DNA of 37,776 bases from Candidatus Kuenenia stuttgartensis (GTDB taxonomy: Bacteria; Planctomycetota; Planctomycetia; Planctomycetales; Planctomycetaceae), in contig CAMAVB010000045.1 of the NCBI GenBank assembly GCA_945861465.1, forward strand, positions 1 through 37,776, read 5' to 3'. Shown here one piece after another: positions 6,933 through 37,776 of this stretch. The first letter of the stretch is position 1, and each line of letters opens with the position of its first letter. Under the pieces are notes generated by a model that saw only the letters and a list, made by a program, of their open reading frames with translations, had not been told where the DNA came from and searched no databases. The position numbers and the translations under genes were made by a program.

Positions 6933-8336
6933 ATGACAAGAACCCGACGACACATGCTTCGCGAATCGGCATGCGGCTTTGGAAATCTGGCTTTGTTGAG
7001 CCTGCTCCAACCATCAGCCGTGGTTGACGCGGTCAATGCAGGTCCGCTGGAGTCGAAGTCGCCGCACTTTCCTGCCACGGCAAAACGCATTATCTTTTTG
7101 TTCATGCACGGAGGCGTGTCGCATGTCGATTCATTCGATCCTAAGCCGAAACTGACCGAACTCAATGGACAGCCGCTGCCCGTTGCCAAGCCGAAATTCG
7201 AATTCGCTCCGACCGGGAATCTGCTGGCTTCGCCGTGGAAATTTCAGCCGTACGGTGAGAGTGGAATCGAAGTCAGCGACTTGTTCCCGCAGATCGGATC
7301 GTGCATCGACGACATCTGTGTGATCCGTTCGATGAACGGAGGTGATCAGGTGTCACACGGCCCGGCACTGCTGAACATCAACACCGGCAGCGGAGTCTTC
7401 GCGCGTCCAAGTCTGGGAGCATGGACCCTGTATGGGCTGGGTACGGAGAATCAGAATCTGCCGGGCTTCATCAGTCTTAGTCCATCGCTGTATCACGGGG
7501 GGACGCAGAATTATGGATCGGCGTTCCTGCCTGCCAGCTTTCAGGGCACGCGAATCGGCGACGGCAGCACGAACTTCCGGGACACTCAATTGTCGAATCT
7601 CGCCCCTGGCGATGATCCGACTCTGCAGCGCCTGCAGCTTGACCTGTTGCTGCAGCGTAATCGGCAGCACATTGCCAGAGTCGGTGATGACCCGCAACTC
7701 GAAGCTCGCATCGCATCGTTTGAAATGAGTTTTCGCATGCAGGCTGAAGCTCCGGAAGTCATGGATCTCTCCCGCGAAACGTCCGAGACTCAGGCACGTT
7801 ACGGAGTCAACATTGAACCGACCGACGAATATGCGCGCCAGTGTCTGCTGGCACGCCGTTGCCTGGAAGCCGGTGTCAGATTCGTGCAGGTCAACTTCAG
7901 CTATCCTCGAAATTACTGGGACGCCCACGGTGACCTGCGGAACAATCACACAACCAACGCAAAGAAAGTGGATCAACCCATTGCTGCTCTGTTGCAGGAC
8001 CTGAAATCACGCGGCCTGTTTGAGGACACACTGGTCATCTTTGGTACGGAGTTTGGTCGCACACCAGCCGCTCAGGGTACCGACGGCCGGGATCACCATC
8101 CACACGCCTTCACGGTCTGGCTCGCCGGCGGCGGCGTTCGAGGTGGCATGACGTACGGCGAGACTGACGAATTCGGCTATTACGTGCAGGACAAAAAAGT
8201 CACCATGCCCGACTTTCACGCCACGATTCTTCATCTAATCGGTCTGAACCACGAACATCTGACCTACCGTCACGCCGGACGCGATTATCGGCTGACGGAT
8301 GTCTTCGGCAATGTGGTGAAAGACGTCCTGGTATAG
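6933..8336 (+). CDS. DUF1501 family protein (sulfatase-like fold), partner of PSCyt1
   Basis: 467 residues from the ATG at 6933, which has GAGG five bases upstream; a longer in-frame reading from 6732 runs through repeats and is rejected. The N-terminus TRTRRHMLRES followed by a hydrophobic stretch resembles a twin-arginine export signal. The DUF1501 body shows FLFMHGGVSHVDSFDPKP, a conserved FGTEFGRTP and GRDHHPHAFTVWLAGGG, features of the alkaline-phosphatase-like superfamily. The enzymatic activity of the family is unknown; it is consistently encoded next to PSCyt1/DUF1549/DUF1553 proteins, as here. The C-terminus appears full length. The TAG stop (8334-8336) is also the first three bases of repeat element E1. 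Confidence 0.92.
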   Translation: MTRTRRHMLRESACGFGNLALLSLLQPSAVVDAVNAGPLESKSPHFPATAKRIIFLFMHGGVSHVDSFDPKPKLTELNGQPLPVAKPKFEFAPTGNLLASPWKFQPYGESGIEVSDLFPQIGSCIDDICVIRSMNGGDQVSHGPALLNINTGSGVFARPSLGAWTLYGLGTENQNLPGFISLSPSLYHGGTQNYGSAFLPASFQGTRIGDGSTNFRDTQLSNLAPGDDPTLQRLQLDLLLQRNRQHIARVGDDPQLEARIASFEMSFRMQAEAPEVMDLSRETSETQARYGVNIEPTDEYARQCLLARRCLEAGVRFVQVNFSYPRNYWDAHGDLRNNHTTNAKKVDQPIAALLQDLKSRGLFEDTLVIFGTEFGRTPAAQGTDGRDHHPHAFTVWLAGGGVRGGMTYGETDEFGYYVQDKKVTMPDFHATILHLIGLNHEHLTYRHAGRDYRLTDVFGNVVKDVLV

Positions 8337-8446
8337 TGCACGGTCAACCGTGCTTTGATGTCTGCCACTGGCTCTGCCAGTGTTGTCTCCTGGCGTGAAA
8401 CACTGGCAGAGCCAGTGGCACACAACCCGTCACTGACAGAGCACTA
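8334..8446 (+). repeat. Element E1: terminal-inverted-repeat element containing the DUF1501 stop codon
   Basis: 113 bp from TAGTGCACGGTCAA (8334-8347) to CTGACAGAGCACTA (8433-8446), whose reverse complement is TAGTGCTCTGTCAG; the two ends match at 11 of 14 positions. Inside is a perfect 22-bp palindrome (arms 8363-8384 and 8399-8420, GCCACTGGCTCTGCCAGTG core). The first TAG is the stop codon of the DUF1501 gene. The interior resembles E2 at 10090-10210. Confidence 0.8.
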
Positions 8447-8559
8447 AGGCGAGCGGCAGATAAGAATTTACCTGCTGTACGACGGACATCCTTGTCCGTC
8501 GTTTGTTTCGGCGGACTTGGAAGTCCGCTGTACGGTAAGAACTAATCTGCCGCTCGCCT
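8447..8559. repeat. Nested palindromic element F between convergent DUF1501 genes
   Basis: 15-bp perfect outer arms AGGCGAGCGGCAGAT at 8447-8461 and 8545-8559 enclose two hairpins: CGACGGACA-tcct-TGTCCGTCG (8480-8501) and GCGGACTT-gg-AAGTCCGC (8511-8528). The inner part resembles the core of element E6 at the right edge of the window, although the outer arms differ. Together E1 and F fill almost the whole gap between the two convergent DUF1501 genes and could terminate transcription from both sides. Confidence 0.75.
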
Positions 8560-8581
8560 AAGTGAGAGCTCGATTTCCGTT

Positions 8582-10051
8582 TCAAGCCAGTATTTCCTGC
8601 AGCACATGCTGAGGTTCTACGCCTGTCAATCTCTGATCCAGACCCTGAAAGCGGTATGAGAACCGTTCGTGGTCAATGCCCAGGCAGTGCAGTAGAGTTG
8701 CGTTCAGGTCGTTTACATGACACGGCTTGTCGATAATGTTGTAACTGAAATCATCCGTCTCCCCGTAGACCGTGCCACCTTTGATGCCCCCGCCAGCCAT
8801 CCACATGCTGAAGCAGCGAGGATGATGGTCACGGCCATAATTTGTCGCGGTTAAAGTCCCCTGCGAATACACGGTGCGGCCGAATTCCCCGCCGCAAACG
8901 ACCAGTGTGTCCTGCAACAGCCCACGCTGCTTCAGGTCCTGCAGCAACGCGGCACAGGGCTGATCGGTGTCATAGCATTGATGTCGAATCTCGCTCGGCA
9001 ACGATCCGTGCTGATCCCAGCCGCGATGCAGAATCTGCACGGCACGCACACCGCGTTCCACCATGCGGCGTGCGAGTAACGCGCTGGCGGCAAATGTTCC
9101 GGGTTTTGAAACTTCTGGCCCGTACATCTCGAGCGTGGCCTGTGTTTCACCTGACAGATCGATCAGCTCCGGCACGCTGCTCTGCATCCGAAATGCCATT
9201 TCGTATTGTGCAATCCGCGTCTGTGTTTCCGGATCACCGAAGCGTTCAAACGTGCGCTGATTCAGTTCTGCCAGACTGTCCAGCATTGCCCGCCGATGAC
9301 TGGTAGAAATGCCCTCCGGGTTATCGATGTAGAGCACCGGGTCGCCCACGCTCCGCAGCGCGACTCCGGTATATCTCGATGGCAGAAACCCGCTGCTCCA
9401 CATCCTTGAAAACAACGCCTGAGCCGCCTGTTTCGATGTCCAGCGCGGTGTCAGTACGACGAAGGCGGGCAGATTGTTGCTTTCACTGCCAAGTCCATAT
9501 GCCAGCCATGAACCGAGACTGGGTTTGCCAGGCACTTCACTGCCGGTTGTGACAAAAGTACACGCCGGATCATGATTGATGGCGTTTGTATGCACACTGC
9601 GAACCAGCGCGATGTCATCGACGTGCTGAGCCGTATGATTCAGCAGTTCGCTGGCCCAGATTCCTGCCTGACCGTGGCGCGCAAACTTAAACAGCGACGG
9701 AGCCACTGGCAATCGCGCCTGGCCGCTGGTCATCGTTGTAATGCGCTGGCCTAACCGAATGGAATCCGGCAAATCTTTATCAAAATGGTCTGCGAGATGC
9801 GGTTTGTAGTCCCATGTGTCCAGCTGCGACGGCCCGCCATTCAGATGCAGATAAATGATGGCTTTTGCTGTGGGGGCGAAATGTGGAAACCCCGGCAACG
9901 GAGGATTTACCTGTTCTGCGAACGCCAATTCCTGAGCCGTCACCCGTTGAGCAGCCATCAGCGCCAATGAAACGCCCCCCATGCGCAACGCACCGTGTCC
10001 GAAGAACTGTCGTCGTGTCCGGGATAGTAGATAGTCGTCAATTGAGGTCAT
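8582..10051 (-). CDS. DUF1501 family protein with Tat-type signal
   Basis: 489 residues. The N-terminus [17 protein letters not shown] followed by a hydrophobic segment ending in VTAQE is a clear twin-arginine signal (RRQFF). Family motifs are [32 protein letters not shown] and [17 protein letters not shown]; the end [16 protein letters not shown] is typical. It is probably folded in the cytoplasm and exported to act with the PSCyt1 protein encoded upstream on the same strand (10208-13336). The catalytic role is unknown. It belongs to a different subfamily from the DUF1501 at 6933, so the two pairs are not a simple recent duplication. A GAGAG lies before the ATG. Confidence 0.92.
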
Positions 10052-10089
10052 GATTTCTCTCGATCTGTACGGGCAAAAACCCTATATCC

Positions 10090-10210
10090 AAGTGCACTGT
10101 CATGCATTCTTTGATGGGTTGTGCGCCACTGACTTTGCCAGTGCTCCCGATTTGCAGGAAGCACTGGCAGAGCCAATAGCACACAACAATATACGACTTA
10201 CAGAGCACTA
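10090..10210 (-). repeat. Element E2: repeat containing the PSCyt1 stop codon, inside the PSCyt1-DUF1501 gap
   Basis: On the minus strand it begins TAGTGCTCTGTAAG (10210 downwards); at the far end the plus strand reads CAAGTGCACTGTCA (10090-10103), matching the family end at most positions. Inside is an imperfect palindrome (about 10117-10145 against 10160-10187) related to the E1 core. The first TAG on the minus strand is the stop codon of the PSCyt1 gene. The element fills most of the 156-bp gap before the DUF1501 gene. Confidence 0.75.
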
Positions 10211-13200
10211 ATTTCTCATTACGGACTCATCCAGGTTCAGAATCAAATTTGCAATCATCGTCCACGCCGCAGTTGCAAGATCGGCGGCAACTTTTTTTGG
10301 TTCTGATTCGCCAACGTGAATTGCTTTGGTCGCAGCGTTGGCGTCGGCGGCAAACATTTCCAACTGTGTTTCCAGCGCGGATGTCACAATCCGGATTTCA
10401 TCTGCAGTCGGCTTGCGCGACAGCACGGTTCGATACAAAAACTCCAGCCGGGAATTGGTGTCCGCACCGCCTTCAGTGAGAACTCGTTCCGCGAGTGCTC
10501 TGGCGGCTTCAAAGTGCTGCACATCGTTCATCAACTGCAATGCCTGCAGCGGAGTGTTGCTGCGTTCTCGACGAGAACAGAACTGTTCGCGATTCGGGCC
10601 ATCAAAGTTTGTCATGAAAGGCGGCGGTGCGGTGCGCTTGATAAAACAGTACAGACTGCGGCGATAGAGATCGTCGCCGTGGTCCTGCATGTAGAAGCGC
10701 GTGTTGCTGTTCTCATAGCCGACCGGTTCCCAGATATCCGGCGGTTGATACGGCATTACTCCGCGACCTCCCATCGCTGAATTCAGAAGGCCGCTCACAG
10801 CCAGCGCATTGTCGCGGAGTTGTTCGCCGTCGAGTCGCAGACGCGGGCCGTGCGCCAGCAAGCGATTCTCTGGATCCAACTGTTGCAGTTCAGGACTGGT
10901 TGCCGAATCCTGACGAAATGTCGCTGAGGTCAGCAGGAGCCGGTACAACTGTTTCGTGTCCCAGCCGGATTCGCGGAAATGAATAGCCAGCCAATCGAGC
11001 AATTCCGGATGGCTGGGCAGACTACCCCTTGTCCCGAAATCGTCGCTGGTCTTGACGAGCCCTGTACCGAATAGCTGCTGCCAGACGCGATTGACCGTGA
11101 CGCGTGTCGTCAGTGGATTCTCTTCCGCCAGGAACCAACGCGCCAGATCCAGTCGATTGGCTCGCTGGTCGGCAGGGAATGGCTGACCGTCCGCAGTCTT
11201 CAGCGGAGGAAATTCCATCGGAACCCGCGGCTCGACTTTATCGCCCGGCTTGTCGTATTGCCCCCGCAGCATGATAAACGCATCTCGCGGCGCGGGCAGA
11301 TCATTGAAAGTGAACGTGCCGGGAATCGTGCCGTTGAGATTTGTCACGTCTTGATCCGCGATAGCCGCAACTTCACGCAGTCGGGCAATCGGCGATTCTG
11401 AGATGCGCTGCACGTTCTGCTGCCAGAATTGACGCAGTTTGCTGCGTTGCTCGGCTGCAACGGAATCGTTGGGTCCAGCAACTAACAGCGTCCGGAGTTC
11501 GCCACTGATGCCTGCTGGATTGGTTCCTTTGCTCATTTCCCACCAACGCTGGAAAGATGACAAGGGATCCTTCGCGCGATCCGTTTTTCCCGCGATTCGC
11601 ACGTCGTCGATCCACACTTTGCCGCCGTTCTGAATCATCACCATGCTCTTCACGAGGGAACCGGACTTTGAGCCTGCGGATTCGAAAGGCACTGAGACCT
11701 GAAGCCATTCACCGGCTGTCGGAATCGGTCCCATATCGGCATTTCCCTTATCAAACCCGATTGTCGATTTGTCGCCCCAGACGATGCGTCGATTCCCACC
11801 GTCGTTGTACTGCACCGCAAACGCCGTCGGAGGGTTGAATGGATCAATTCGCAGTCCGAATTCCAATCGACCGTCATTTGGTATGACCACAGGAATCAGC
11901 GTGAAATCCAGGTTCAGGTCATACTGCGAGCCGTACGCCAGTTCGAGTACACGCCGACCGGACTTCGCACCGAATGCCGGATCAAGCCGCCATGTCGTGT
12001 CGTTTCGCGATGTGTTACGTGTATTTGTCCCGAGCGGAAAACCATCGTCGATGAGTACATCGCGGACATCGACAATGTCAGCGGCAACTTCGGCAGCGGC
12101 GTTTGCCGGATCGGAATATTCGACCGCAGCGAGGGCGTCTGCCAGGGATTTCTTCGAAGTCACTGTCATTTGTTGAGCGGCTTCCAGGGCCAATTTCTGT
12201 TCGACCGTCGGCACTTTCAAGAACGGATTCGTCGTGCTGATATTCCCGTCCATCGCTGGATCGGATGTTGAATAGAAAAACGAATACATGGAATAGAAAT
12301 CCCGCTGCGTCACGGGATCATATTTGTGATCGTGACAAACGGCGCAGCCAGCCGTCAGTCCCATCCACGTCTGCATCGTCGTGCTGGTGCGATCGACCGC
12401 GTAGCGATACAGCCATTCTTCCGAGATGGCTCCGCCTTCACTTGTCGTCACATTGCAGCGATTGAATCCTGTGGCAATGAGTTGATCCTGAGTCGGTTCG
12501 GGCAGTAGATCGCCCGCGAGTTGCCATCTCGTGAATTCATCGAACGGCAGATTTTGATTGAAGGCTTTCACAACCCAGTCACGATACGCCCACATCTCGC
12601 GTTCATTGTCCAGATGCAGACCGTGCGTGTCGGCGTATCGCGCGACATCCAGCCATTGCCGTGCCTGTTCTTCTCCGAAATGCGGTGACGCCAGATACCG
12701 ATCCACCATTTTCGCATACGCATCGGCGGACGCATCATTCAGGTACTCGTCCACTTCAGCGATCTTTGGCGGCAGTCCTGTGAGCGTAAATGCCACGCGG
12801 CGAATGAGCATTTCACGATCCGCTTCACGCTGTGGGGCGAGTTTCTGTTGCTCCAGTCTGGCCAGGATGAACGCATCGACTGGATTTCGCACCCACGCGG
12901 CAGTCTGAACTTCCGGAATCTTCTGTGACTCTGGCGGTTCGAAGGCCCAATGCTTCTGATACGGTGCGCCCTGTTCGATCCAGCGACGCAACGTATCTTT
13001 TTCGACGTCGGTCAGCGTTTTTTTCGACTCAGGCGGAGGCATCACGACTTCAGCGTCCGCACTTGTAATGCGTCCCCAGAGTCCGCTTCCCGGCAGATCA
13101 CCCGGCTTGATCGCGATCGAACCATCGCGTTCAGCATAGGCTCCTGCTGCCGTATCGAGCCGCATCTCGGCCTTGCGTGTCTTGACGTCAAAACCATGAC

Positions 13201-13336
13201 ATTCAAAACAATTCGCCGCCAGAATTGGCCGCACATCACGGTTGAATTCAATCTCATCCTGCGCGCTCACACGCGGACAGAGAGTGAACAGCCATGGAGC
13301 CGTGCAACAAATCAAAAGCGTTCTGTGGTTCCACAT
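10208..13336 (-). CDS. PSCyt1-DUF1549-DUF1553 protein with an internal beta-sandwich
   Basis: 1042 residues. Signal peptide 1-25 (ending VSAQ), PSCyt1 domain with haem motif CFECH at 43-47 and a methionine-containing VVMPPPESKK segment. DUF1549 begins near 135 (HWAFEPPE) and includes GCAVCHDHKYDP near 328. Between the DUF domains, roughly residues 430-590, is a probable ligand-binding beta-sandwich (DDGFPLG, LEFGLRIDPFNPP, GKVWIDDVRIAG) resembling a carbohydrate-binding module. DUF1553 follows (NPLTTRVTVNRVWQQLFG) to the natural end NLDESVMRN. It probably works with the DUF1501 protein encoded downstream. GGAG lies eight bases before the ATG. The TAG stop is embedded in element E2. Confidence 0.93.
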   Translation of the reverse strand: MWNHRTLLICCTAPWLFTLCPRVSAQDEIEFNRDVRPILAANCFECHGFDVKTRKAEMRLDTAAGAYAERDGSIAIKPGDLPGSGLWGRITSADAEVVMPPPESKKTLTDVEKDTLRRWIEQGAPYQKHWAFEPPESQKIPEVQTAAWVRNPVDAFILARLEQQKLAPQREADREMLIRRVAFTLTGLPPKIAEVDEYLNDASADAYAKMVDRYLASPHFGEEQARQWLDVARYADTHGLHLDNEREMWAYRDWVVKAFNQNLPFDEFTRWQLAGDLLPEPTQDQLIATGFNRCNVTTSEGGAISEEWLYRYAVDRTSTTMQTWMGLTAGCAVCHDHKYDPVTQRDFYSMYSFFYSTSDPAMDGNISTTNPFLKVPTVEQKLALEAAQQMTVTSKKSLADALAAVEYSDPANAAAEVAADIVDVRDVLIDDGFPLGTNTRNTSRNDTTWRLDPAFGAKSGRRVLELAYGSQYDLNLDFTLIPVVIPNDGRLEFGLRIDPFNPPTAFAVQYNDGGNRRIVWGDKSTIGFDKGNADMGPIPTAGEWLQVSVPFESAGSKSGSLVKSMVMIQNGGKVWIDDVRIAGKTDRAKDPLSSFQRWWEMSKGTNPAGISGELRTLLVAGPNDSVAAEQRSKLRQFWQQNVQRISESPIARLREVAAIADQDVTNLNGTIPGTFTFNDLPAPRDAFIMLRGQYDKPGDKVEPRVPMEFPPLKTADGQPFPADQRANRLDLARWFLAEENPLTTRVTVNRVWQQLFGTGLVKTSDDFGTRGSLPSHPELLDWLAIHFRESGWDTKQLYRLLLTSATFRQDSATSPELQQLDPENRLLAHGPRLRLDGEQLRDNALAVSGLLNSAMGGRGVMPYQPPDIWEPVGYENSNTRFYMQDHGDDLYRRSLYCFIKRTAPPPFMTNFDGPNREQFCSRRERSNTPLQALQLMNDVQHFEAARALAERVLTEGGADTNSRLEFLYRTVLSRKPTADEIRIVTSALETQLEMFAADANAATKAIHVGESEPKKVAADLATAAWTMIANLILNLDESVMRN

Positions 13337-13600
13337 CAGACAGACTCCGGAAATCGATATTCAAAATCTTGTTTCTATGTTACCGATTTTGTCGCCCCAA
13401 TGCGACGCTTCCTGAACAATTCGCGAGTCCCCGATTTTCAGGAAAACAGGGCGATCCTTGACGATCCCGCAGCGGGTACGGTGGACCAAAAATCTCCACA
13501 AAGACGAGGCGTTCCTGAGTTTCATGCACACACATGTTCGGGCCGCGGACGGCAGTATTGTGCGTCGTGATATGGGAGATATGGCTCAGCGAGCTATCCG

Positions 13601-13883
13601 TTGCCGGCATCGTCACAAAACGTTGGGGATGGGTTTGCACTTGGCGGCTCAACCGAGAATCTGTTCCGTCACAAGGACGCCCATTTTTGGTTGCCGTGCA
13701 TGGACGAGTGGTACAAAGCGGCGTATTACAATCCCACGGCAAATGCTGGTATGGGTGGCAATGCGAATGAATGGGAAGAAACGCCCTTTGATCTGACCAA
13801 TAATCCATGTTCCGAAAATCATGTGCGCCGCGGCGGTGCTTGGCTCCAACCCTTCGTGTTGTCCTTGCGAATGGCGAGCGGTT
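13601..13883 (+). pseudogene. Decayed SUMF1/formylglycine-generating-enzyme-like domain
   Basis: One frame encodes FWLPCMDEWYKAAYYNPTA, then GGNANEWEETPFDLTNN, then VRRGGAWLQPFVLSLRMASG. These are the successive landmarks of the SUMF1 fold (LPTEaEWykAAYY; GNvwEWnE; RGGSW...LRssyR), but the stretches between them are far too short and the N-terminal half is absent. The frame then runs into the palindrome at 13874-13973 and reads antisense into the GH63 gene. It is interpreted as a truncated, internally deleted relic. The 264 bp before it (13337-13600), upstream of the PSCyt1 gene, show no other gene. Confidence 0.6.
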
Positions 13884-13973
13884 GGGCGTCAGCCCTCCGT
13901 GTCCGTATCAGCGTGTCGGTCGGGAAGACCAGCCCTTGCCAAACACACGGAGGGCTGACGCCCAGCCGCTCGC
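13874..13973. repeat. 29-bp inverted repeat at the 3' end of the GH63 gene
   Basis: Arms 13874-13902 and 13945-13973 pair with a single T/C difference (a G-U pair in RNA), with a 42-nt loop. It lies 10 bp beyond the GH63 stop. The arm contains TTGGGCGTCAGCCCTCCGTG. It probably acts as a transcript-end hairpin for the minus-strand gene. Confidence 0.7.
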
Positions 13974-13983
13974 GAGAGCAGAT

Positions 13984-16731: not shown

Positions 16732-16753
16732 AATTCTATTCCTCCGAAGGTTT

Positions 16754-16827
16754 GGAAAAGGGGTCAGGAACCAATAGTACGCAGCACCCTGCGGGCCATT
16801 TGGCTATTGGTTCCTGACCCCTTTTCC
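16754..16827. terminator. Perfect 24-bp palindrome between S9 peptidase stop and GH63 start
   Basis: Arms 16754-16777 and 16804-16827 are exact reverse complements (GGAAAAGGGGTCAGGAACC-type), with a 26-nt loop. On the minus strand it starts three bases after the S9 peptidase stop (16831-16833) and ends about 10 bp before the GGAGG of the GH63 gene. The position suggests a transcript-end hairpin. There is no T-run, so the mechanism is uncertain. Confidence 0.6.
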
Positions 16828-16830
16828 CGA

Positions 16831-19236: not shown

Positions 19237-19237
19237 T

Positions 19238-19338
19238 AGGACTGAGACAGAAATAAGTGGGGCACGATTCCATCGTGCCTGGCACGATGGAATCGTGCCC
19301 CACGTCCGGAAGACGAAATTTATTTCTGGGCTGGTCCT
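19238..19338 (-). repeat. Element D1: 101-bp palindromic element just upstream of the S9 peptidase start
   Basis: Bounded by AGGACTGAGACAGAAATAA on the left and, as reverse complement, AGGACCAGCCCAGAAATAA on the right (about 16 of 19 matches). The core is a perfect 23-bp palindrome with a 1-nt loop (19257-19279 and 19281-19303, CACGATTCCATCGTGCC). A second copy of identical length is at 31640-31740. It ends one base before the ATG of the S9 gene and separates it from DUF423. Confidence 0.8.
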
Positions 19339-19370
19339 TACTGCGGAAGAAAATTGTACGGAAGAAATCA

Positions 19371-19829: not shown

Positions 19830-20041
19830 TCTGAGCAGTCCAGTCCCGTAAGTCCCAATTTCGCTTCCACAAACCTCAAATCCGTCGTGAATCCGATCGA
19901 AGTCAGTCGGAATTTTAGCAGTCTGCATTGATGCAGTCTTCCGTCGCGCTGCTACACTGCGGATTCGACGCTCATGTTCCCGGAAATCGGGGCGGCGTGC
20001 TCCCCCATGCGGATGTCCAGCAAGAGTACCGAGTTCAAGTC

Positions 20042-21778: not shown

Positions 21779-21848
21779 CGTGGCCGATACCGCGCGCAGT
21801 TGAGGTGGCACAGTCGTTTAACCGCGTGGGCAACGCCCCGCGCTTTGT

Positions 21849-21953
21849 ATTTCAAATTTCAAATCTCAAATCTCAAATTTCAAATCTCAAATCAAAAATC
21901 TCAAATTTCAAATCTCAAATCAAAAATCAAAAATCTCAAATCAAAAATCAAAT
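21849..21953 (+). repeat. Fifteen in-phase heptanucleotide repeats
   Basis: 105 bp made of 15 consecutive 7-mers drawn from three variants: ATTTCAA, ATCTCAA and ATCAAAA (the last unit is ATCAAAT). With A, B and C for these, the order is A A B B A B C B A B C C B C C. The tract is very AT-rich against the GC-rich surroundings and lies between the kinase stop and the DUF1559 stop. The in-frame translation rich in QISNLKS is spurious. Confidence 0.9.
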
Positions 21954-21968
21954 CTTGACGGAGCACTA
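21954..21968 (-). repeat. Element E3 end containing the DUF1559 stop codon
   Basis: On the minus strand the DUF1559 gene ends TAC TAG and continues TGCTCCGTCAAG, matching the E-family end TAGTGCTCTGTCAA with one change. The TAG (21966-21968) is both stop codon and element end. Beyond it lies the heptamer repeat; no convincing opposite end was found before the kinase stop, so this copy may be partial. Confidence 0.7.
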
Positions 21969-24626: not shown

Positions 24627-24635
24627 AAGTTGTCA

Positions 24636-26045: not shown

Positions 26046-26073
26046 ACCCTATGGCTGACGAGTCTGTGAATTC

Positions 26074-26150
26074 GTAGGGTGGGACAAGCGGAGCGCCGGC
26101 CCACCAGATCGGACAAATGGTGGGCCGGCGCTCCGCTTGTCCCACCCTAC
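26074..26150. terminator. Perfect 33-bp palindrome between convergent regulator and AAA genes
   Basis: Arms 26074-26106 and 26118-26150 are exact reverse complements with an 11-nt loop (arm starts GTAGGGTGGGACAAGCGGAG). It lies between two genes that converge, about 28 bp past one stop and 26 bp past the other, and could end both transcripts. The same kind of GGTGGGCCGGCGCTCC word is a common dispersed sequence in several bacterial groups. Confidence 0.65.
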
Positions 26151-26163
26151 ATACAGTCGTTGT

Positions 26164-26178
26164 CTCGATAAAGCACTA
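26164..26178 (-). repeat. Element E4 end containing the AAA ATPase stop codon
   Basis: The minus strand reads ATG TAG TGC TTTATCGAG. TAGTGCT and the following TCGAG partly match the E-family end TAGTGCTCTGTCAA. The TAG (26176-26178) is the stop of the AAA gene. A weakly similar sequence (CTATGGCTGACGAG) lies at 26049 on the other side of the palindrome. This is the most divergent member of the family. Confidence 0.45.
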
Positions 26179-27957: not shown

Positions 27958-27959
27958 GT

Positions 27960-28706: not shown

Positions 28707-28866
28707 GTTGCTGTCCTGTCGTGCCGTGCAATGTGTTTTGAAATGAACGATGAGCGCAAGAACGCCGGGCCTATTGTCACGGATCAAACTGCATTCCAAC
28801 AATCCGTCAGGCCCGGAAAATCGGATTTTTCTTCAGGCTGTGGGTTTTTCCGGCGCTTCAGACTTT

Positions 28867-29101
28867 GCTCAGCAAACGCTGAGAGTGTTGCTATTCTGAG
28901 AAGATTTGGCCTGACCAGCAAGCGAGCACTTGGTTGAGTTCAAAGTGGCCATCACTCTCTGAGTGATGAATTGCGATTAAGGCGGATCAACCGGGACGTG
29001 ACTGCGTCTGTGACGATTGTCTGAACCGGGCAAATGAATCGCATCGCGTCACTCGGAGAGTGACGTATACTTTGGGTTGCGGGCGAAGCCCGCGTCAAGA
29101 T
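28867..29101 (-). repeat. Dispersed intergenic repeat B, copy 2 (inverted relative to copy 1)
   Basis: Read on the minus strand it follows B1 (6340-6584) from ATCTTGACGCGGGCTTCGCC through both CACTC/GAGTG palindromes to GTTTGCTGAGC, with scattered substitutions and a few indels. It lies in the 419-bp gap (28707-29125) between the unknown protein gene and pspA, about 24 nt past the stop of the former. Its far end also forms a CTCAGC-aaac-GCTGAG hairpin (28868-28883). No gene is seen in this gap. Confidence 0.85.
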
Positions 29102-29125
29102 TCCTGTACCTTGGACATTCGATCG

Positions 29126-30238: not shown

Positions 30239-30313
30239 ACGTGTGTGATAGGAAATGCGAGTCGGCGGAGCGACATCGCCTACAATCGATGCACTCTGGC
30301 ATTTCGAATGTAG

Positions 30314-30335
30314 CTCAGTCGCTCCGACGACTGAG
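30314..30335. repeat. Short palindrome CTCAGTCG/CGACTGAG
   Basis: Two 8-bp arms with a 6-nt loop, in the 245-bp gap (30239-30483) between the unknown gene and the CHRD gene. It lies about 75 bp upstream of the GTG start. It may be a relic of a dispersed palindrome or a small hairpin in the leader. Function unknown. Confidence 0.5.
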
Positions 30336-30370
30336 ATTTTCTGGTGACAGCGTCGATATTGCGATGTCGC

Positions 30371-30406
30371 TTCAAGGAGCCTGTCAGGAGTGACAGGCTC
30401 CTTGAA
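30371..30406. terminator. Perfect 16-bp hairpin downstream of the CHRD gene
   Basis: TTCAAGGAGCCTGTCA (30371-30386), loop GGAG, and its exact reverse complement (30391-30406). On the minus strand it lies 77 bp after the CHRD stop and before the next gene. It is compact and very stable, the most terminator-like hairpin in the window, but it is not followed by a T-tract. Confidence 0.55.
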
Positions 30407-30483
30407 CTACAGTCCGTCTGCGCGAAGAATCCCTGCGACACGATTAATCAGCGGAAGGCAAAATGATGCACCGTTCGGTTCCT

Positions 30484-31095
30484 TCAACGGGATGCCATTC
30501 GTTTGCGTTTTACGAAGCGTCTCCCGAGCAACACGCAACCTGCTCCAATGGCCAGCGACGCAAGGCTGGTTGGCTCTGGAACCGCGTGCAGAAAGCCACG
30601 AATCTCGCCGCCGGTAAAGGCGCTCGTATGGATGTTGAAGTAGGCCGTCCCTGCCAGCAAACTGGAAAGCAAGGCCGCCTCAGCGGTCGTGGGCGTTCCA
30701 CCGTTAGCGGTAATAAACCCGGCACGATAAGAGCTGGCCATGGTCATGTCGAATGTGGTATCCATCGAGCCAAACGTCACACTCAGAGGGAAACCGAGGA
30801 ACGACGGTGTCTGTGTGGCGACGCCCGCTGTCCCGACACCCGGCACCGTCGTGGCAGCGTGGATATGAGACGCTGTTGTCAGGCCAGTCAAACCCATAAA
30901 GCTTGCCTCAACCCGCATGGTATGAAGCCCGGTATTAAAAGTCACTTGCGCAAACCCCGTCCCCAGAGAAGCGTTCGGCGGCGACTCATTCGGACCGCTA
31001 AGATTTGCGGTGAACACCATAATGCCTGCCTGGGATATTTGCGAACCAATCCCCAAACCGATTCCCAGAGCTAAAAGTACAATGCATTGCTTCAT
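30484..31095 (-). CDS. CHRD-domain protein with PEP-CTERM sorting signal
   Basis: 203 residues. A signal peptide (MKQCIVLLALGIGLGIGSQI...) is followed by a CHRD domain: TANLSGPNESPPNASLGTGF, ASHIHAATTVPGVGTAGV and TAYFNIHTSAFTGGEIRGFL are its conserved strands. The C-terminus has VPEPTSLASLAIGAGCVLLG and a basic tail RRFVKRKR, a PEP-CTERM signal that an exosortase (not in this window) would cleave, leaving the protein at the cell surface or in the matrix. The CHRD fold is proposed to bind or act on extracellular ligands; its activity is unknown. An AAGGGG precedes the ATG. It is a single-gene unit with a hairpin downstream. Confidence 0.92.
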   Translation of the reverse strand: MKQCIVLLALGIGLGIGSQISQAGIMVFTANLSGPNESPPNASLGTGFAQVTFNTGLHTMRVEASFMGLTGLTTASHIHAATTVPGVGTAGVATQTPSFLGFPLSVTFGSMDTTFDMTMASSYRAGFITANGGTPTTAEAALLSSLLAGTAYFNIHTSAFTGGEIRGFLHAVPEPTSLASLAIGAGCVLLGRRFVKRKRMASR

Positions 31096-31639
31096 GATGT
31101 TTTCCCCTTAAATAACAAGGATCAGACCACAAACACGTCAGGAGAATAATCGGGCCAACGCAGGTATGCAAGCGATGGTCAGTTGTTGTCAATCGCATAA
31201 ACCACTCATGCATTGCCGCGCGGGATGGAAATCTTCTCTGCAAAGAATGAAAATCTGGTTTTCATGAGAAGATTCCTGCTGCTAATGGCGTTGTGGGCAA
31301 AGCCCGCGCCAAGATCAAAGTCCGCGAGCGAAGACTGTTGCAGGGTCAGGAGAACGGCTCCAAAAGGGCAGAGCGGCGCGAAACAGCGTGCGCAACTGTC
31401 AACGGAATGGCGAATCGGGAAGAACTTTCAGAAATTCTGATGGGTTTCAGTCTCGGTTTACGAGTGTCGGTTTAGAGACAAAGCACATGAACTGGTCGCT
31501 GGATTCAGCCTGGATTGATATCATATGATTGCGATAACTTTTTCCTTTCCAACCGCAGCGAATTTTGCTCGCATTTTTTCGAACGTTGTTGTTCGGGATT
31601 TCGGATTTCGAAATTCGGATTTGCGGCTTCGCCGCGCCA
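31096..31639. other. 544-bp gap without a recognisable gene
   Basis: Together with D2 this separates the divergent CHRD and sigma-factor genes. It contains a decayed copy of the GC-rich B-end word (GTTGTGGGCAAAGCCCGCGC, near 31290), a small ATGAAAA/TTTTCAT hairpin (31247-31265) and a GCGGCTTCGCCGC hairpin next to D2. Open frames here are short, overlapping on both strands and unlike any family I recognise. Promoters for both neighbours should lie here, but none is clear. Confidence 0.5.
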
Positions 31640-31740
31640 AGGACCGGCGCAGAAATAACTGTCGTATTCAGGACGTGGGACACGTTTATAACGTGCCCGG
31701 CACGATGGAATCGTGCCCCACTTATTTCTGTCTCTGTCCT
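31640..31740 (+). repeat. Element D2: second copy of the 101-bp palindromic element
   Basis: Starts AGGACCGGCGCAGAAATAA and ends with TTATTTCTGTCTCTGTCCT, matching the reverse complement of D1 along its full 101 bp. The right half of the core (GGCACGATGGAATCGTGCC) is intact; the left half has drifted (GTGGGACACGTTTATAACG), so the long palindrome is broken. It lies about 41 bp upstream of the sigma-factor ATG, oriented to its gene as D1 is to the S9 peptidase gene. Confidence 0.78.
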
Positions 31741-31781
31741 CAGTATGGCTCTTTGCCACGTTCCGGTATCGGAAAGCCACA

Positions 31782-32405
31782 ATGTCGGACGAGCAGAATG
31801 AGCATTCAGTGACGGATTGGATTGCCGCATTGAAGCAGGACCATTCGATGGCAGGCCAGCGATTGTGGGAACAGTATGTCGAGAAGCTCGCGCGGCTGGC
31901 TCGTAAGAAACTTGGCGACCTGCCGAGGCGGGCGGTCGATGAAGATGATGTGGTCGCAGAAGTGTTTGCTGACTTTTTGCAGGGAGTCCAGGAACAACGG
32001 TTCGAACGGCTCCACGATCGGAACGACCTGTGGCAGGTTCTTGCCATGTTGACGGAACGAAAGGCCATCGACCTGATCCGCCGGGAGACGAGTGCTAAGC
32101 GAGGTGGCGGCCATATCGTCGGCGAATCGGCCTTTGAGAACCCGTCGGCAGGATCCTCCGCTGCCCCCGGCATTTGCCAGGTGCCTGGATTTGAACCCGA
32201 CCCGGCGTTCGCGGCCGAACTGACAGATCTGCTCGGACACCTCCTGCGTTTGTTAGACAACGACATGCTGCGTGCCCTTGCCCGGGACAATCTGGCTGGC
32301 TACACGCAGGAAGAAATGGCAGTCAGAAATGGCATCGCGCTGGCCACAGTTCAGCGCAAATTGAGACTGATTCGTGAAAGATGGAATCTTGAGGTGACTG
32401 TATGA
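31782..32405 (+). CDS. ECF-type RNA polymerase sigma factor linked to a kinase
   Basis: 207 residues from the ATG at 31782 (MSDEQNEHSV); the in-frame ATG at 31713 would overlap element D2 and is unlikely. Region 2 is visible in RLWEQYVEKLARLARKKLGD, DEDDVVAEVFADFLQG and DLWQVLAMLTERKAIDLIRR. A Gly/Ser/Pro-rich linker leads to region 4: LDNDMLRALARDNLAGYTQE followed by EEMAVRNGIALATVQRKLRL. No anti-sigma factor gene is adjacent. The stop overlaps the next start (ATGA, 32402-32405), coupling it to a large kinase. Planctomycete ECF sigma factors of this type are typically encoded with serine/threonine kinases and are thought to be controlled by phosphorylation. Confidence 0.9.
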   Translation: MSDEQNEHSVTDWIAALKQDHSMAGQRLWEQYVEKLARLARKKLGDLPRRAVDEDDVVAEVFADFLQGVQEQRFERLHDRNDLWQVLAMLTERKAIDLIRRETSAKRGGGHIVGESAFENPSAGSSAAPGICQVPGFEPDPAFAAELTDLLGHLLRLLDNDMLRALARDNLAGYTQEEMAVRNGIALATVQRKLRLIRERWNLEVTV

Positions 32406-35400
32406 CTCATGCTGGCAACACTGTCGATGCGGAAGCTTCGTATCACAAACTTCAACGTATCGATTCGGTATGCGATGAATTTGAGCGGGCGTGGAACGAG
32501 CGTTCCTCTCCGAGCATTGATGTCTTCCTTGAAACGTACCCGGAACTGCCGCGGCCACAGCTTCTTTTCGAACTGATTTCTCTGGAGCGCAGTCTTCGCC
32601 ACCGCGCCGGGGAATCTCCGGAAATGGACGAATACGTCCGGCGATTTCCCCATGACAAGACGCCTGTCGAACTTGTGTGGTGCCAGGCAACTGAGTTGTC
32701 TTTTGCGGTTGCAGATTTGGCGTTGCCGGTTCCCGAGATTTCATTAGCGGAGCAGAAAACTCAACGCAGCGACCAGCGGGAACTCCCTGACAAAATCGGT
32801 GAATTCAGGATTCTGCGGGAACTTGGGCGCGGTGGTATGGGGATCGTGTACGAGGCGTTGCAGGAGTCCTTAAATCGTAACGTCGCGCTCAAGGTGTTGC
32901 CGCTGCTCGGGCGCTGCGATCAGCGGCAAATTCAGCGATTTCAGAATGAAGCGAGTGCTGCGGCACAGCTCCATCATGAGAATATCGTTCCGGTGTACTC
33001 AGTCGGGTTTGATGACGGAGTTCACTATTACGCGATGCAGATGATCGATGGGTATGATTTGTCTCATTACATCAGCCACGCGCGAAGTCTGGTGGAGTCG
33101 AAATCTGATCGCCCTTCAGGCGAAACGCCACAGTTGGCGGGTGAAGCAACCGTTGTCGGTCAACCAGATCGGATCCCTGAAGACGATCCTATTCTGGCCT
33201 GGCACAGCGGGATCACCGGCGTCTCGTACCCGTCGGCGGAATTCGTCGAAATGATGTCCGGTAAGAAATGCTCGATGATGGTCAACGATGTGTTGCTGCC
33301 GGTTGTCCAGATCGGCATCAAGGCCGCCGAAGCGCTCCATCATGCGCATCTGCTTGGGGTTGTGCATCGAGACATCAAGCCGTCCAATTTGCTGATGGAC
33401 CACGAGGGGAAAGTGTGGGTCACAGATTTTGGACTGGCTCAGGTTCAGGGAGTTGGTGCGCTCACGATGACCGGTGATGTGGTGGGAACGCTGCGCTACA
33501 TGAGTCCCGAACAGCCACTCGGGCAGCGCGTGCTGGTCGATCAGCGGACGGATATTTATTCGCTGGGAGTCACCCTCTACGAACTTCTGACGCTGAAAAA
33601 GGCCTACGATGGTCAGACGCCAAAAGAGATCATCAGGCAGGTCTGTTTCGATGAGCCGACATCAATCCACCGACTGAATCCCAGAGTTCCGGATGATCTT
33701 GAGACGATCGTGCTGAAGGCCATGTCCAGAAATCCCGACGACCGTTATCAGACGGCGCAGGAGCTTGCCGATGATCTGAAGCGGTTCAGCCAGGACGAGC
33801 CGATTCTGGCTCGCCGGCCAACCCTGATGCAGCGATCCCGGCGCTGGATCCGGCGGCATCTGGTGCTGGCATCATCGGCCGCCGTGGCGGTCGTTGTACT
33901 GTGCCTGACATCGATCGGCGCATCGGGGGTAATCTGGAACTCACTGATCGCCGAGACACAGCAGCGCAGGCGTGCGGAGTCGTTACTGGAAAAATCGGAG
34001 GGACTCCGTCTGTCTGTGAACTCGTCGCTCGAGCGAGACAGGAATCCGGGCCTTGCATTGGCGCTTGCAATCAGAAGCGCGGAAGTGAGCCCTGGCATGG
34101 ACGCCAACGCAGCTTTGCTGACCGCGATGCGCAGCAACCACGAGCTGAAAACATTCTCGCCGGGCACAGAAATCGCGGATCAGGTCTCGATCAGTCCCGA
34201 CGGACAACGGGTTGTCACAACGGTCTCGCGAGCATACTTCGGGGGAGGCAATTATCCGGCAATCGAATCCGATCCGATGACTGGGCAGACCTTGCGGACT
34301 TATGATGATGGCACCGCCATTACGTCCGCCGCCTACAGTCCCGATGGCAAACTGCTGCTCGCCACTTCAAGTCCGTCTCGTAATCTCGCGGGGAACGATG
34401 CGGCACCGGCATCCAGCATACACACGAATGCAACCGATGCGGTTCCAACGGTCTGGAATGCAACAACCGGCGCGAAGATAATTTCACTGAATGATGCATC
34501 GCTGGATGTGGTTGTCGGCACGATGTTCTCGCCTGATTCACAGCGAGTCGCTCTGCCGGGCCGCGATAACTCCATCAGAGTCTACAAAACTGCCGATGGT
34601 CAACTCGACAAACGGATGATAGGGCACACGGCTCAAGTTATCGCCGTGACCTTCAGTCCGGATGGAAAGCGATTGGTTTCTACGGCATTAGATCAAACTG
34701 TTCGCGTCTGGGATCTGGAATCTAGTGCGGAACTGGAGCAGTTTCCGGTCGAGACCGCGCCGAGGCCGGAACAGACTGCCGTGTTTGCCGATTCGGACAG
34801 ACTTGTGATTTCCACAAACGCGGGTACAAAGATCGTGTCTGTCAGCTCTAGGAAGCAGGACAATCCGCAACACTGGCCGGAATCAGCATCCGCCGTGAGC
34901 CGAGATGGAAGGCAGGTCGCGCTGCATTTGCCTTTCGGGACACACGTGGCAATACGGGACACTCTGTCGTTTCGACTGAATGCCGAAATTGACGCCGACG
35001 ATTCCATCGTTTCCATGGAGTTTAGCAGTGACGGAAGACGAATCCTGGTAACGACGGTCTCTCACGCGACCGTCTACAGTTGCGAGGATGGAGGAATCGT
35101 TGCGAAATTGCAGGGTCACACCGGAAGATTGCGGGCCGGCCGATTTACGCCTAACGACGAAAATCTCATCACAACTGCCGCCGATAGGACCGTTCGGTTT
35201 TGGTCTGTACGAAATGGCGAAGCACGTCTGAGACTGGCTGATGACCCTGCGCAGATCGCTCCTTCGCCATGGAACTTCAGTCAGGATTCTGCATTTGCAG
35301 TCATCGCGACGCAGCCCACGTGGAACTCGAAGGTTTTTGACTTCGCTGGCCGCCCCTCATCCATTGAGTTTTCCGGCAGAGTCAGCAGTCGCACAGTGAA

Positions 35401-37414
35401 TACGCATCGCCTTGTGACGATCGATGATCATCATGTCAATGTCTGGCATGCTCCATCGTCTGGAAGAATTGCGTCGCTCTCGTTGCAGTCGAAGACAGTT
35501 GTTGCCGCGATGCTTGTGCCGGGGACCGACGTGGTCGTGGTACTCACGGACAACGCTGCCGCAATTCTCTGGAATACAAAGACGCAGGATCGCATGTTGA
35601 TTGGGGACCCCGACGACGTGCCACTGGATGTTGACGTCCATCCGACAAACGGCAGCATTGTGCTCGCACTGCAAAATGGCATCTGCCACGTTGTCGATGC
35701 TGTCACGGGAACCATCAGCCGCACGCTGCCGCACGACCATGGCGTGCTTGCCGCAAACTTCAGCCCAACCGGAACCATGGTGCTTACAGTCGATACATCA
35801 AACACTGCGAGAGTATGGTCTCCGGACAACGATCTTCCTCTACAGACATTCAATACGGGCGGCGGTCCGATCGATCGAGCCCAGTTCTCTTCGGACGAAT
35901 CGGCGGTTGTTACCTGGAGTATGGAAGAACAGGACGCCGTGTCCGCATGGCAAATTGAGACCGGCGCGCTCATCGCCAGGACGGAAGCCATGGTGAGGCC
36001 CCGAGTCCTTGTCCATCCCTCGCAAGCCATTGCGGCGATTGCTTCCGCAAAGAATGGATTGATGCTGTGGAACTGGGAAACTGGTGAACAGCGGCGACTG
36101 TCTGACTCTCCCGCCAAATCGCCCATCTTCTTTGGGGACCATATCATGTCAATCGAGGCGGTCCCGGGGTTCCACGTCGCGAACTCCACTCTTCCAGGAA
36201 TTGGAGACAGCCCCGAATTTGCACGATCTGTGCTCATGATCCGTGATGTAGCGAATGCCGAAATTGTTGCCAGTCAGCCACTGGATTCGCAACCGGGGAA
36301 ACTGACACTTGATCTGGACACTGGGCAGGTTCTACTTTCCTGTATGACCCACAATGTGACTCTGCTGCGTATGCATGACCGTCAGAAATTGCCGTCAGTG
36401 GGTCATCATGCGGCTCCCATTGTTTTTGAAGCGATCACCGGGGATACCCAGAAGACTGTCTGTGCATCTTTGGACGGGACCGTCAGCGTGTGGGATCTCT
36501 CCGGAAGGCAATTGATTCCCCCGCTGGTACACGATCATCCGATCGTGAATGCGGCAATCAGCCCGGACGGAATTCGGCTTGCAACTTTTGATGCGACGGG
36601 AGCCGGAATACTCTGGGATTTGGAGAATGGCGAGAGAATCATGGAATTTCCGGGCCATGCTGGAATCGTTCCGATCATCCGATTCTCAGGTTCAGGCAAA
36701 CAACTGCTGACGTCCGGATCCGATTCGACCATTCACATCTGGGATCTGATCTCCAGGACGGAAACTCAGCTGAATTTCGAACCGGGAGTGATAGGTGCCG
36801 AATGGTCGCCGGACGACAGTCAACTTCTGGTCGTTACCGGGGAAGTTCAAAATGCGTTGAAAGATAAGGCTCGTCCGGCGGAATCGCTGCTGCCTTCAGC
36901 AGCATACCTGGTGGAACTCCGTAGTGGCGCAAGAACGAAGTTGAATGTCGAGAGCACGCCCAGGTTCGGTTGTTTTCGGCCGATCCTGGACCAGTTTGCC
37001 ATCGTTTCGGAAGACCGAAAAGTGACATTGTATGACATCGCCACTGGCAAAGCGGCCACCAAGTTCAATCCGAACCGACGCCCCATATTCAACGTCGCAT
37101 TCAGCCCGGATGGACAGGATCTGCTCGTCATGCATGATGACGAACTCTCACTTTGGGATCTCGATGTGGGTGACGAAATTATCCGCATTTCGAAAACGGA
37201 ATTGTTTTCTGGGGAACGATCATCGCTCAAAACACCAAGCGTTTGGAATCCGTTCAGTCCCGATGGTCAATGGATCCTCTCTTCCAGGCTGCATTTGGAA
37301 ATGTGGCCGCGTGACCCGCTGAAGGAAGTCCTCAAGCAGGTTCCGCGGCCATTGACAGATGCCGAGAAACGCAGATTCTCAGTCGATTTGATCGCTGAAG
37401 GTGCAAACAAGTAG
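32402..37414 (+). CDS. Membrane serine/threonine kinase with C-terminal WD40 repeat region
   Basis: 1670 residues. An N-terminal helical region (CDEFERAWNERSSPSIDVFL, EMDEYVRRFP) typical of planctomycete kinases precedes the kinase domain: glycine loop GRGGMG near 142, VALK lysine, HRDIKPSN near 321, DFGLAQ near 342, YMSPEQP. An unusual insertion of about 70 residues lies in the kinase between the hinge region and the HRD loop. A single transmembrane helix (about 487-510) follows. The remaining 1100 residues hold many WD40 repeats (VTFSPDGKRLVSTALDQTVR, RFTPNDENLITTAADRTVRF, IRFSGSGKQLLTSGSDSTIH), enough for two propellers. The propellers presumably face the exterior and sense or bind a partner. 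The start overlaps the ECF sigma stop, so the sigma factor is the likely kinase client. The TAG stop here is not in an E element. Confidence 0.93.
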   Translation: MTHAGNTVDAEASYHKLQRIDSVCDEFERAWNERSSPSIDVFLETYPELPRPQLLFELISLERSLRHRAGESPEMDEYVRRFPHDKTPVELVWCQATELSFAVADLALPVPEISLAEQKTQRSDQRELPDKIGEFRILRELGRGGMGIVYEALQESLNRNVALKVLPLLGRCDQRQIQRFQNEASAAAQLHHENIVPVYSVGFDDGVHYYAMQMIDGYDLSHYISHARSLVESKSDRPSGETPQLAGEATVVGQPDRIPEDDPILAWHSGITGVSYPSAEFVEMMSGKKCSMMVNDVLLPVVQIGIKAAEALHHAHLLGVVHRDIKPSNLLMDHEGKVWVTDFGLAQVQGVGALTMTGDVVGTLRYMSPEQPLGQRVLVDQRTDIYSLGVTLYELLTLKKAYDGQTPKEIIRQVCFDEPTSIHRLNPRVPDDLETIVLKAMSRNPDDRYQTAQELADDLKRFSQDEPILARRPTLMQRSRRWIRRHLVLASSAAVAVVVLCLTSIGASGVIWNSLIAETQQRRRAESLLEKSEGLRLSVNSSLERDRNPGLALALAIRSAEVSPGMDANAALLTAMRSNHELKTFSPGTEIADQVSISPDGQRVVTTVSRAYFGGGNYPAIESDPMTGQTLRTYDDGTAITSAAYSPDGKLLLATSSPSRNLAGNDAAPASSIHTNATDAVPTVWNATTGAKIISLNDASLDVVVGTMFSPDSQRVALPGRDNSIRVYKTADGQLDKRMIGHTAQVIAVTFSPDGKRLVSTALDQTVRVWDLESSAELEQFPVETAPRPEQTAVFADSDRLVISTNAGTKIVSVSSRKQDNPQHWPESASAVSRDGRQVALHLPFGTHVAIRDTLSFRLNAEIDADDSIVSMEFSSDGRRILVTTVSHATVYSCEDGGIVAKLQGHTGRLRAGRFTPNDENLITTAADRTVRFWSVRNGEARLRLADDPAQIAPSPWNFSQDSAFAVIATQPTWNSKVFDFAGRPSSIEFSGRVSSRTVNTHRLVTIDDHHVNVWHAPSSGRIASLSLQSKTVVAAMLVPGTDVVVVLTDNAAAILWNTKTQDRMLIGDPDDVPLDVDVHPTNGSIVLALQNGICHVVDAVTGTISRTLPHDHGVLAANFSPTGTMVLTVDTSNTARVWSPDNDLPLQTFNTGGGPIDRAQFSSDESAVVTWSMEEQDAVSAWQIETGALIARTEAMVRPRVLVHPSQAIAAIASAKNGLMLWNWETGEQRRLSDSPAKSPIFFGDHIMSIEAVPGFHVANSTLPGIGDSPEFARSVLMIRDVANAEIVASQPLDSQPGKLTLDLDTGQVLLSCMTHNVTLLRMHDRQKLPSVGHHAAPIVFEAITGDTQKTVCASLDGTVSVWDLSGRQLIPPLVHDHPIVNAAISPDGIRLATFDATGAGILWDLENGERIMEFPGHAGIVPIIRFSGSGKQLLTSGSDSTIHIWDLISRTETQLNFEPGVIGAEWSPDDSQLLVVTGEVQNALKDKARPAESLLPSAAYLVELRSGARTKLNVESTPRFGCFRPILDQFAIVSEDRKVTLYDIATGKAATKFNPNRRPIFNVAFSPDGQDLLVMHDDELSLWDLDVGDEIIRISKTELFSGERSSLKTPSVWNPFSPDGQWILSSRLHLEMWPRDPLKEVLKQVPRPLTDAEKRRFSVDLIAEGANK

Positions 37415-37503
37415 CGGCTTGCCTCGGTGGTCGCAGCGTTTGGTTCAGCAACGTGCCCGGCAGCCAAATTCGCTTCCACCTGGACAAGCCAGTTGGGAAG
37501 CAG

Positions 37504-37646
37504 CTAGTGCATCGTCAAGTCAACGAATTGGGGTTGAACTGCAGGCCGAACCAAGCGAAGCGCCGTTCCGGCAGGTCGGCCAATTGCCGGAACTGAGCTT
37601 CGCTTGGTCCGGCCTACCCTAAAATCAAGTCTTGGCGAAGCGCTAG
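37504..37646 (+). repeat. Element E5: free-standing terminal-inverted-repeat element
   Basis: 143 bp. The left end CTAGTGCATCGTCAA (37504-37518) and right end TTGGCGAAGCGCTAG (37632-37646) are imperfect inverted repeats. The core is a 30-bp palindrome with three mismatches (37544-37573 and 37585-37614, contains ACCAAGCGAAGC). It is tandem with E6, sharing CTAG at 37643-37646. It lies about 90 bp past the kinase-WD40 stop; the intervening bases show nothing recognisable. Confidence 0.8.
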
Positions 37647-37776
37647 TGCTCTGTCAACCTTTAAAGTTGGGGTTGAATTGTATTTGTACGACGGACTTCC
37701 AGTCCGTCGGCGGTAACCTTTGTCGACGGACTGGAAGTCCGTCGTACCCGAAAATTGAGCCTTGACAGAGCACTAG
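37643..37776 (+). repeat. Element E6: terminal-inverted-repeat element with perfect 15-bp ends
   Basis: 134 bp from CTAGTGCTCTGTCAA (37643-37657) to its exact reverse complement TTGACAGAGCACTAG (37762-37776, the last bases of the window). The core is a perfect 24-bp palindrome (37686-37709 and 37724-37747, GTACGACGGACTTCCAGTCC). It shares TTGGGGTTGAA near the left end with E5. This is the best-preserved member and the reference for the family. Confidence 0.88.

Follow-up and report, generated by a model that had tools for sequence, protein, structure and literature searches.

Short inverted-repeat elements at TAG stop codons of a planctomycete genome are very probably IS630-type MITEs

The window, i.e. 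the complete stretch of 37,776 nucleotides under study, is contig C45 of a draft genome of 8.22 Mb in 474 contigs. Pfam confirmed the gene names of the original prediction, DUF1501, PSCyt1 (together with PSCyt2 and PSD1), DUF1559 and AAA. The short palindromic elements of the window are collected in Table 1. Four of them, E1, E2, E6 and E7, are two-ended copies of one family; two of these four are located exactly at stop codons, and a remnant of the family is found at a further stop. At E1, the DUF1501 gene (called from 6954 to 8336) terminates in frame with the TAG at 8334-8336 on the plus strand, and the TAG at 10210-10208 on the minus strand ends the PSCyt1 gene in frame at E2, both as originally predicted. 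The DUF1559 gene likewise genuinely ends with the TAG at 21968 (minus), where a single element end is preserved beside a simple repeat of the ATTTGAG type (about 21849-21960). A distance of 231 nt separates E6 from the end of the nearest called gene. E6 has the CTAG at 37643-37646 in common with E7 and is directly followed by the contig end at 37776, as is expected for a break behind a multi-copy repeat. The TAG at 26178 (minus), the stop of the AAA ATPase gene, had been named as a weaker case and is not supported as a member of the family: with three mismatches, the match is of a kind expected about twice per window by chance, the partner end was not seen, and the TAG stop is kept in all three relatives compared (G011, G014 and G012), in which the 250 nt shown gave no sign of the element.

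Table 1. Palindromic elements of the window; family members are given as MITEs according to the reading favoured in the text
Feature	Position	Strand	Remarks
E1, 109-bp MITE (G...C)	8336..8444	+	TA at 8334-8335 and 8445-8446
Second palindromic element, ends GGCGAGCGGCAGAT	8448..8558		TAA on both sides (8445-8447, 8559-8561); abuts E1
E2, 117-bp MITE	10092..10208	-	TA at 10209-10210; AA at 10090-10091, taken as decayed TA
One-ended MITE-end remnant, about 27 nt	21942..21968	-	At TAG stop of DUF1559 gene
Palindrome GTAGGGTGGG...CCCACCCTAC, probably not a family member	26074..26150		33-bp arms, 100% complementary; adjoins AAA gene stop 26176-26178
E7, older 137-bp MITE copy	37507..37643		7 of 24 TIR letters changed; not at a stop
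E6, young 128-bp MITE, C TA[...]TA G	37646..37773		TIRs intact (24 of 24 letters); away from stops

The inverted-repeat family is real. With up to three mismatches, the 14-mer TAGTGCTCTGTCAA has nine matches in the window (shuffled sequences: mean 1.99, largest 7), and with up to two mismatches it is found 234 times in the whole genome as compared with 47 matches for the reversed control; 44 exact 14-mers were listed. As predicted, it is exact at both ends of E6 (37644-37775), but this best copy is not situated at a stop codon. When up to one mismatch is allowed, 32 of the 59 genomes searched contain the sequence, with 102 matches in the genome studied here (G000) and 96 in G004 from the same genus (1 and 5 in the control), and none in the genomes G001, G007, G009, G010 and G013, also of the same genus. 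A megablast comparison of E6 with 72,556 plasmid records gave no match.

Complete copies were collected from a sample of 2.34 Mb in 81 pieces, comprising the window, 12 pieces picked for holding matches (L123–L132, L138, L142) and a remainder taken by contig number. This sample contains 59 two-ended copies as opposed to six for the reversed control (at most 6 of 24 mismatches in the terminal inverted repeats, TIRs, and an inner stem of at least 9), with lengths of mostly 117 (20 copies), 128 (12) and 138 bp (4). The unit is a short, non-coding hairpin bounded by terminal inverted repeats, GTGCTCTGTCAA…TTGACAGAGCAC, mostly of 109–138 bp and flanked by a duplicated TA that typically lies in CTAG. 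In its young form of 132 bp it reads C-TAGTGCTCTGTCAA … TTGACAGAGCACTA-G. Inner hairpins vary among copies and the ends of one kind are kept. In three copies (L130 ~192, L131 ~15794, L135 ~18828) the inner palindrome is interrupted by a sequence starting GTTAAAAAT, which may represent a further mobile element exploiting the MITE palindrome.

Both the duplication of TA and the preference for CTAG are evident from the copies themselves. Among the 59 copies, 20 have an intact TA on both sides, 21 on one side and 18 on neither, and the outer base is C in 70 and C or T in 77 of the 96 ends of copies away from stops. The ten copies with unchanged TIRs are all enclosed by C…G, eight of them with TA at both ends. 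Additional copies with an exact 29-nt end were taken from 39 named stretches of three metagenome-assembled genomes, 'Candidatus Kuenenia stuttgartiensis' ME-08apr19-56, Planctomycetota ZH-3NOV15-plancto2 and RH-20APR16-plancto1. In this MAG set TAG continues at 29 of 37 readable far ends (the near C was part of the search pattern). A four-base-pair CTAG duplication of the IS5 type was considered for the C…G-flanked copies with intact TIRs and set aside, since the G and C of the element itself are retained in copies within TTAG, ATAA and CTAA contexts, which have only TA in common. These copies suggest that the unit runs from G to C and that TA is the duplicated target.

The same terminal inverted repeats occur in related genomes on elements that encode a DDE_3 transposase. 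At the end of contig C147 of genome G032, an IS630-like element (L252, 1–1310) is bounded by two TIR matches at a distance of 1.3 kb and has HTH_32/HTH_23 in a first frame and DDE_3 (PF13358, E 1.5e-20) in a second; judged by these two separate frames, the element is probably inactive. Relatives of the second frame are present in 36 of 120 genomes of the family and no match was obtained in G000 (E ≤1e-20 in both cases). At 11 of 30 homologous loci (L253, L254, L261-L264, L267, L268, L272, L274 and L279, the last from the same genus) both ends are within two mismatches of GTGCTCTGTCA, mostly with C..G outside, while the other 19 have different TIRs, one matching end or no end that could be found. 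The likeness extends beyond the 12 core letters: 52 ends of MITEs of 109-118 bp agree with the left end of the G032 element at 11.0 of 16 positions (4.9 after shuffling) and 24 ends of 128-bp MITEs agree with a left end from G011 at 10.6 of 16 (4.3 after shuffling), the remaining length classes matching these two ends less well. Judged by these end sequences, at least two IS630 lineages are the likely sources of the MITEs.

In the genome itself, no intact IS630 element with these ends was found, a statement that applies to a draft in 474 contigs and is thus no proof of absence. PF13358 has two matches there, one with ends TAGACCT... (by eye) and one a fragment. The sole longer IS630-like gene found (L041, 1308-2845) has ends TAGACCT... 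and adjoins a MITE copy at 2885-3001. Three pairs of TIRs 1.2–3.8 kb apart were noted in the pieces scanned; the pair at C5 spans one called gene and the other two span three and four. Among 29 IS630 loci examined, none has TIRs with at most two mismatches at both ends, and four of them (L146, L150, L156 and L157) start with TA-GT and have C..G outside. Many MITEs occur without a resident partner.

Sites lacking the element in related genomes point at insertion. The PSCyt1 gene ends with …MRN-TAG followed by the element in our genome, and with …MRN-TAG, a single TA and no element in G011 (L193), where the downstream sequence resumes. In a search that took in 13 of 14 prepared sites (3,876 of 4,172 letters), flanks joined with one dinucleotide also aligned across the junction at C5 in G014 (a 1-nt gap lies close by) and in G011, at C96 in G011 and G014, and at C61 in G011 (with only 15 nt on the left). 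The relatives read TA, CT, CC, CA and TA at these junctions, such that TA is present in three of the six cases (PSCyt1/G011, C5/G014 and C61/G011) and CT, CC or CA in the others. C58 corresponds to TGA and a local gap in G011, G014 and G012 and to CTAG in G005 and G003, at C69 the alignment starts at the junction, and at C23 G014 has CTA at the junction with a poorly aligning outer flank; C23, C58 and C61 were compared at the nucleotide level. Descent of the TAG independent of the element, named in the original prediction as a point against it, is seen in part. Eight relatives shown for PSCyt1 have TAG twice (G011 and G005) and TGA six times, and the gene at 26178 has TAG in three of three, but in relatives of DUF1501 and DUF1559 (four for the latter) a TGA or TAA stop occupies the corresponding position; the gene end could not be read in G005 (DUF1501) and G001 (DUF1559). 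The site of E1, which is abutted by the second palindrome with TAA on both sides, may have carried a TAA stop before insertion.

Taken together, the repeats are very probably non-autonomous MITEs of the IS630/Tc1-mariner type, with their placement at stops a by-product and not the target. They make up a further case of a known type of element, IS630-related MITEs having been known before. IS630 reportedly prefers CTAG as a target. A close counterpart in form is RUP from Streptococcus pneumoniae, described as a 107-bp element with 108 intergenic copies, TIRs very similar to those of an IS630 element and a TA target, and thought to be moved by IS630-Spn1 (PMC2229807). Size class, IS630-like TIRs and TA target are alike, whereas TIR letters and host differ and the insertion sequence of RUP resides in the same species, unlike here, where none was found in the own genome; a link of RUP to stop codons was not met in the portion of PMC2229807 at hand. 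The Correia/NEMIS elements of Neisseria are portrayed in the same source as small, with TIRs, TA ends, a target duplication and stable RNA stem-loops (PMC2229807). They are likened to the MITEs by description and not by sequence, and differ in their reported RNase III and IHF motifs. For the IS630-family transposase of ISY100/ISTcSa, which has HTH and DDE domains, TA insertion with duplication is documented in vitro (PMC2170065); IS630 and ISY100 encode a transposase and the MITEs do not. The original prediction held that no element with such a stop-codon placement had been described. This does not hold in general, as GTAG-REPs, which are often close to 3' ends and are reported from the PVC group as well, have a TAG terminus that often supplies the stop codon of flanking genes (PMC3733652). 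They are the only direct parallel for the placement in the literature considered, although they are palindromes of 20-40 nt tagged at one end and the MITEs are longer and two-ended (PMC3733652).

How closely the family is tied to stop codons was assessed for 57 of the 59 copies, the other two being inside called genes. Eleven of the 57 are located exactly at a called stop, where 5.2 are expected from context-weighted TA sites (p 0.013), and 26 lie at a distance of 0–60 nt downstream of a stop, compared with an expectation of 12.9 (p 1e-4), which leaves 15 for the zone of 1–60 nt (7.7 expected from the weights). The value of p at stops depends on the thresholds, with extremes of 0.09 at ≤5 mismatches and 8e-5 for a strict gene set. 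None of the 12 copies with at most one mismatch is at a stop, as compared with 11 of 45 older ones. The samples differ in this respect: of the 40 copies of the MAG set, all with an exact 29-nt end, ten coincide with a stop (p 0.018 against the 12% derived from our genome), 16 are within 0–60 nt and six in the zone of 1–60 nt; four of the 40 lack a second end in reach. The genome-wide excess at distance zero that had been predicted is therefore present and nominally significant, but modest. Part of it is probably due to genes missed by the simple gene caller: 80.7% of the sample was called coding, and the null model may count missed genes as free space and thus understate the expectation. Of the 11 stop copies, three (C55, C56 and C58:8146) are without a credible second end. 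In the other eight, the second dinucleotide is followed by A in three cases and by G in five, as predicted for former TAA or TAG stops, which is weak evidence since about 80% of non-stop ends (77 of 96) have A or G anyway.

One could imagine that the elements are dedicated 3'-end cassettes, i.e. terminators or hairpins for RNA 3'-end processing, as had been proposed originally, or protection hairpins, that are kept by selection behind stops. The hairpins are indeed very stable (RNA fold z of -7.1 for E1 at 8334-8446, -7.9 for E2 at 10090-10210 and -13.5 for E6 at 37644-37775) and the accumulation of copies within 60 nt behind stops would be in keeping with such a function. A terminator scan restricted to positions 8200-10400 returned a weak terminator-like match at the left end of E1 (8338-8353) and another within the second palindrome (8479-8502). 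However, the combination of a GC stem-loop with a directly following U-run that defines intrinsic terminators was not found for the main hairpins of the three copies folded, E1, E2 and E6. Furthermore, most copies are located elsewhere than at a stop (46 of 57 and 30 of 40), 31 and 24 of them, respectively, are not even within 60 nt behind one, the null may understate the expectation as outlined above, and the element is absent from the same stop in relatives. We therefore consider this explanation quite unlikely.

Another original proposal was a mobile palindrome with TAG as its target, which may be widened to stop codons as such. Mobility is borne out by the IS630-like ends, the duplicated TA and the element-free sites, but the target is TA, mostly in CTAG. 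The fractions at stops (11/57 and 10/40) are about twice the expectation for all non-coding sequence, and ten of the 16 MAG copies within 0–60 nt are at distance zero (p 0.06 against 0.40 and 0.23 against 0.50). On the other hand, the ten copies of our genome with intact TIRs reside in CTAG-type sites and none of these is a stop, the duplicated unit is TA and not TAG, and the earlier stops deduced include TAA. Of the copies 0–60 nt behind a stop, 21 of 42 are at the stop itself (11 of 26 from our genome and 10 of 16 from the MAGs), which equals the share among element-free CTAG sites of the sample in the same zone (36 of 74), so that the choice of CTAG alone accounts for the share of copies at stops. 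A looser [CT]TA[AG] target gives an expectation of 0.398 at distance zero (p 0.12 with 0.40, both sets). The local comparison leans on the CTAG preference, since plain unweighted TA has an expectation of 0.287 and predicts 12 of 42 instead of the 21 observed. Given that preference, there is no sign of stop-codon choice beyond it; the link to stop codons is real but secondary, and targeting of stops as such is very improbable.

GTAG-REPs are not known to show a TA duplication and go with RAYTs. A family of REP/REPIN-type palindromes that owe their movement to a RAYT (Y1) transposase, as assumed for GTAG-REPs, is a highly improbable alternative: palindrome, TAG end and stop-codon use look the same (PMC3733652), but the units are not palindromes of 20-40 nt with GTAG at one end; they span about 109-138 bp, with paired inverted ends in common with DDE_3 transposons and TA outside.

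For the preferred reading, insertion of IS630-type MITEs into TA, the following course of events is conceivable. An IS630-family (Tc1/mariner-type) transposase would recognize the terminal inverted repeat GTGCTCTGTCA..., excise the MITE and join it into TA, preferably within CTAG, whereupon the TA would be duplicated. With G at both element ends, a TAA or TAG stop that receives the element in its TA would become TA+G and hence TAG in frame; a TAA stop hit in this way would also read TAG because the G belongs to the element. The protein would not be changed and the insertion would survive, while insertions inside genes would mostly be lost. Roughly every second CTAG site found shortly behind a gene end is itself a C-TAG stop, so that a fifth to a quarter of the surviving copies would come to lie on stops. 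A preference for stops would not be needed, since CTAG choice and loss of insertions inside genes would suffice. The transposition chemistry would be that described for IS630 and ISY100, and both mobility of the MITEs at present and purifying selection shaping their distribution are presumed.

An odd pattern, repeats starting at stop codons, may thus be explained by target choice alone. We infer the simple rule that a TA-duplicating element with a terminal G regenerates TAG, a statement not met in the parts of the literature on IS630, RUP and GTAG-REPs at hand. TAG stops and 3' ends in such genomes could consequently be rewritten by insertions, and a MITE family from planctomycete MAGs is linked to likely IS630 donors. 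It may even be speculated, although we regard this as unlikely, that the terminal G is a kept adaptation, that it makes TAA and TAG stops safe harbours in which TA-duplicating MITEs starting with G can last near gene ends, and that their hairpins may come to serve mRNA 3' ends.

Other repeats of the window deserve mention. The second palindromic element next to E1 may have entered a site reading GTA TAA GTG. TAA as its duplication is unproven, since among 337 loose matches to its family's ends (GGCGAGCGGCAGA) in 2.34 Mb AAC most often precedes (37 cases; TAA in 31). Two of the 31 TAA-preceded ends are at a called stop, and no link to stops was seen among the 337 matches. The letters of the palindrome at 26074-26150 differ from the MITE ends; this inverted repeat (GTAGGGTGGGACAAGCGGAGCGCCGGCCCACC) begins with GTAG, as GTAG-REPs do. 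An array of ATTTGAG/ATTTGA-type simple repeats at 21835-21960 adjoins the MITE remnant, and on contig C129 (L191) the stop codon of a DUF1501 paralogue is succeeded by a similar simple-repeat stretch containing the same GGGCAACGCCCCGCG motif. Finally, longer repeats in inverted orientation, 85-87% alike, are present at 6339-6584 and 28866-29101 and at 19238-19346 and 31632-31740.
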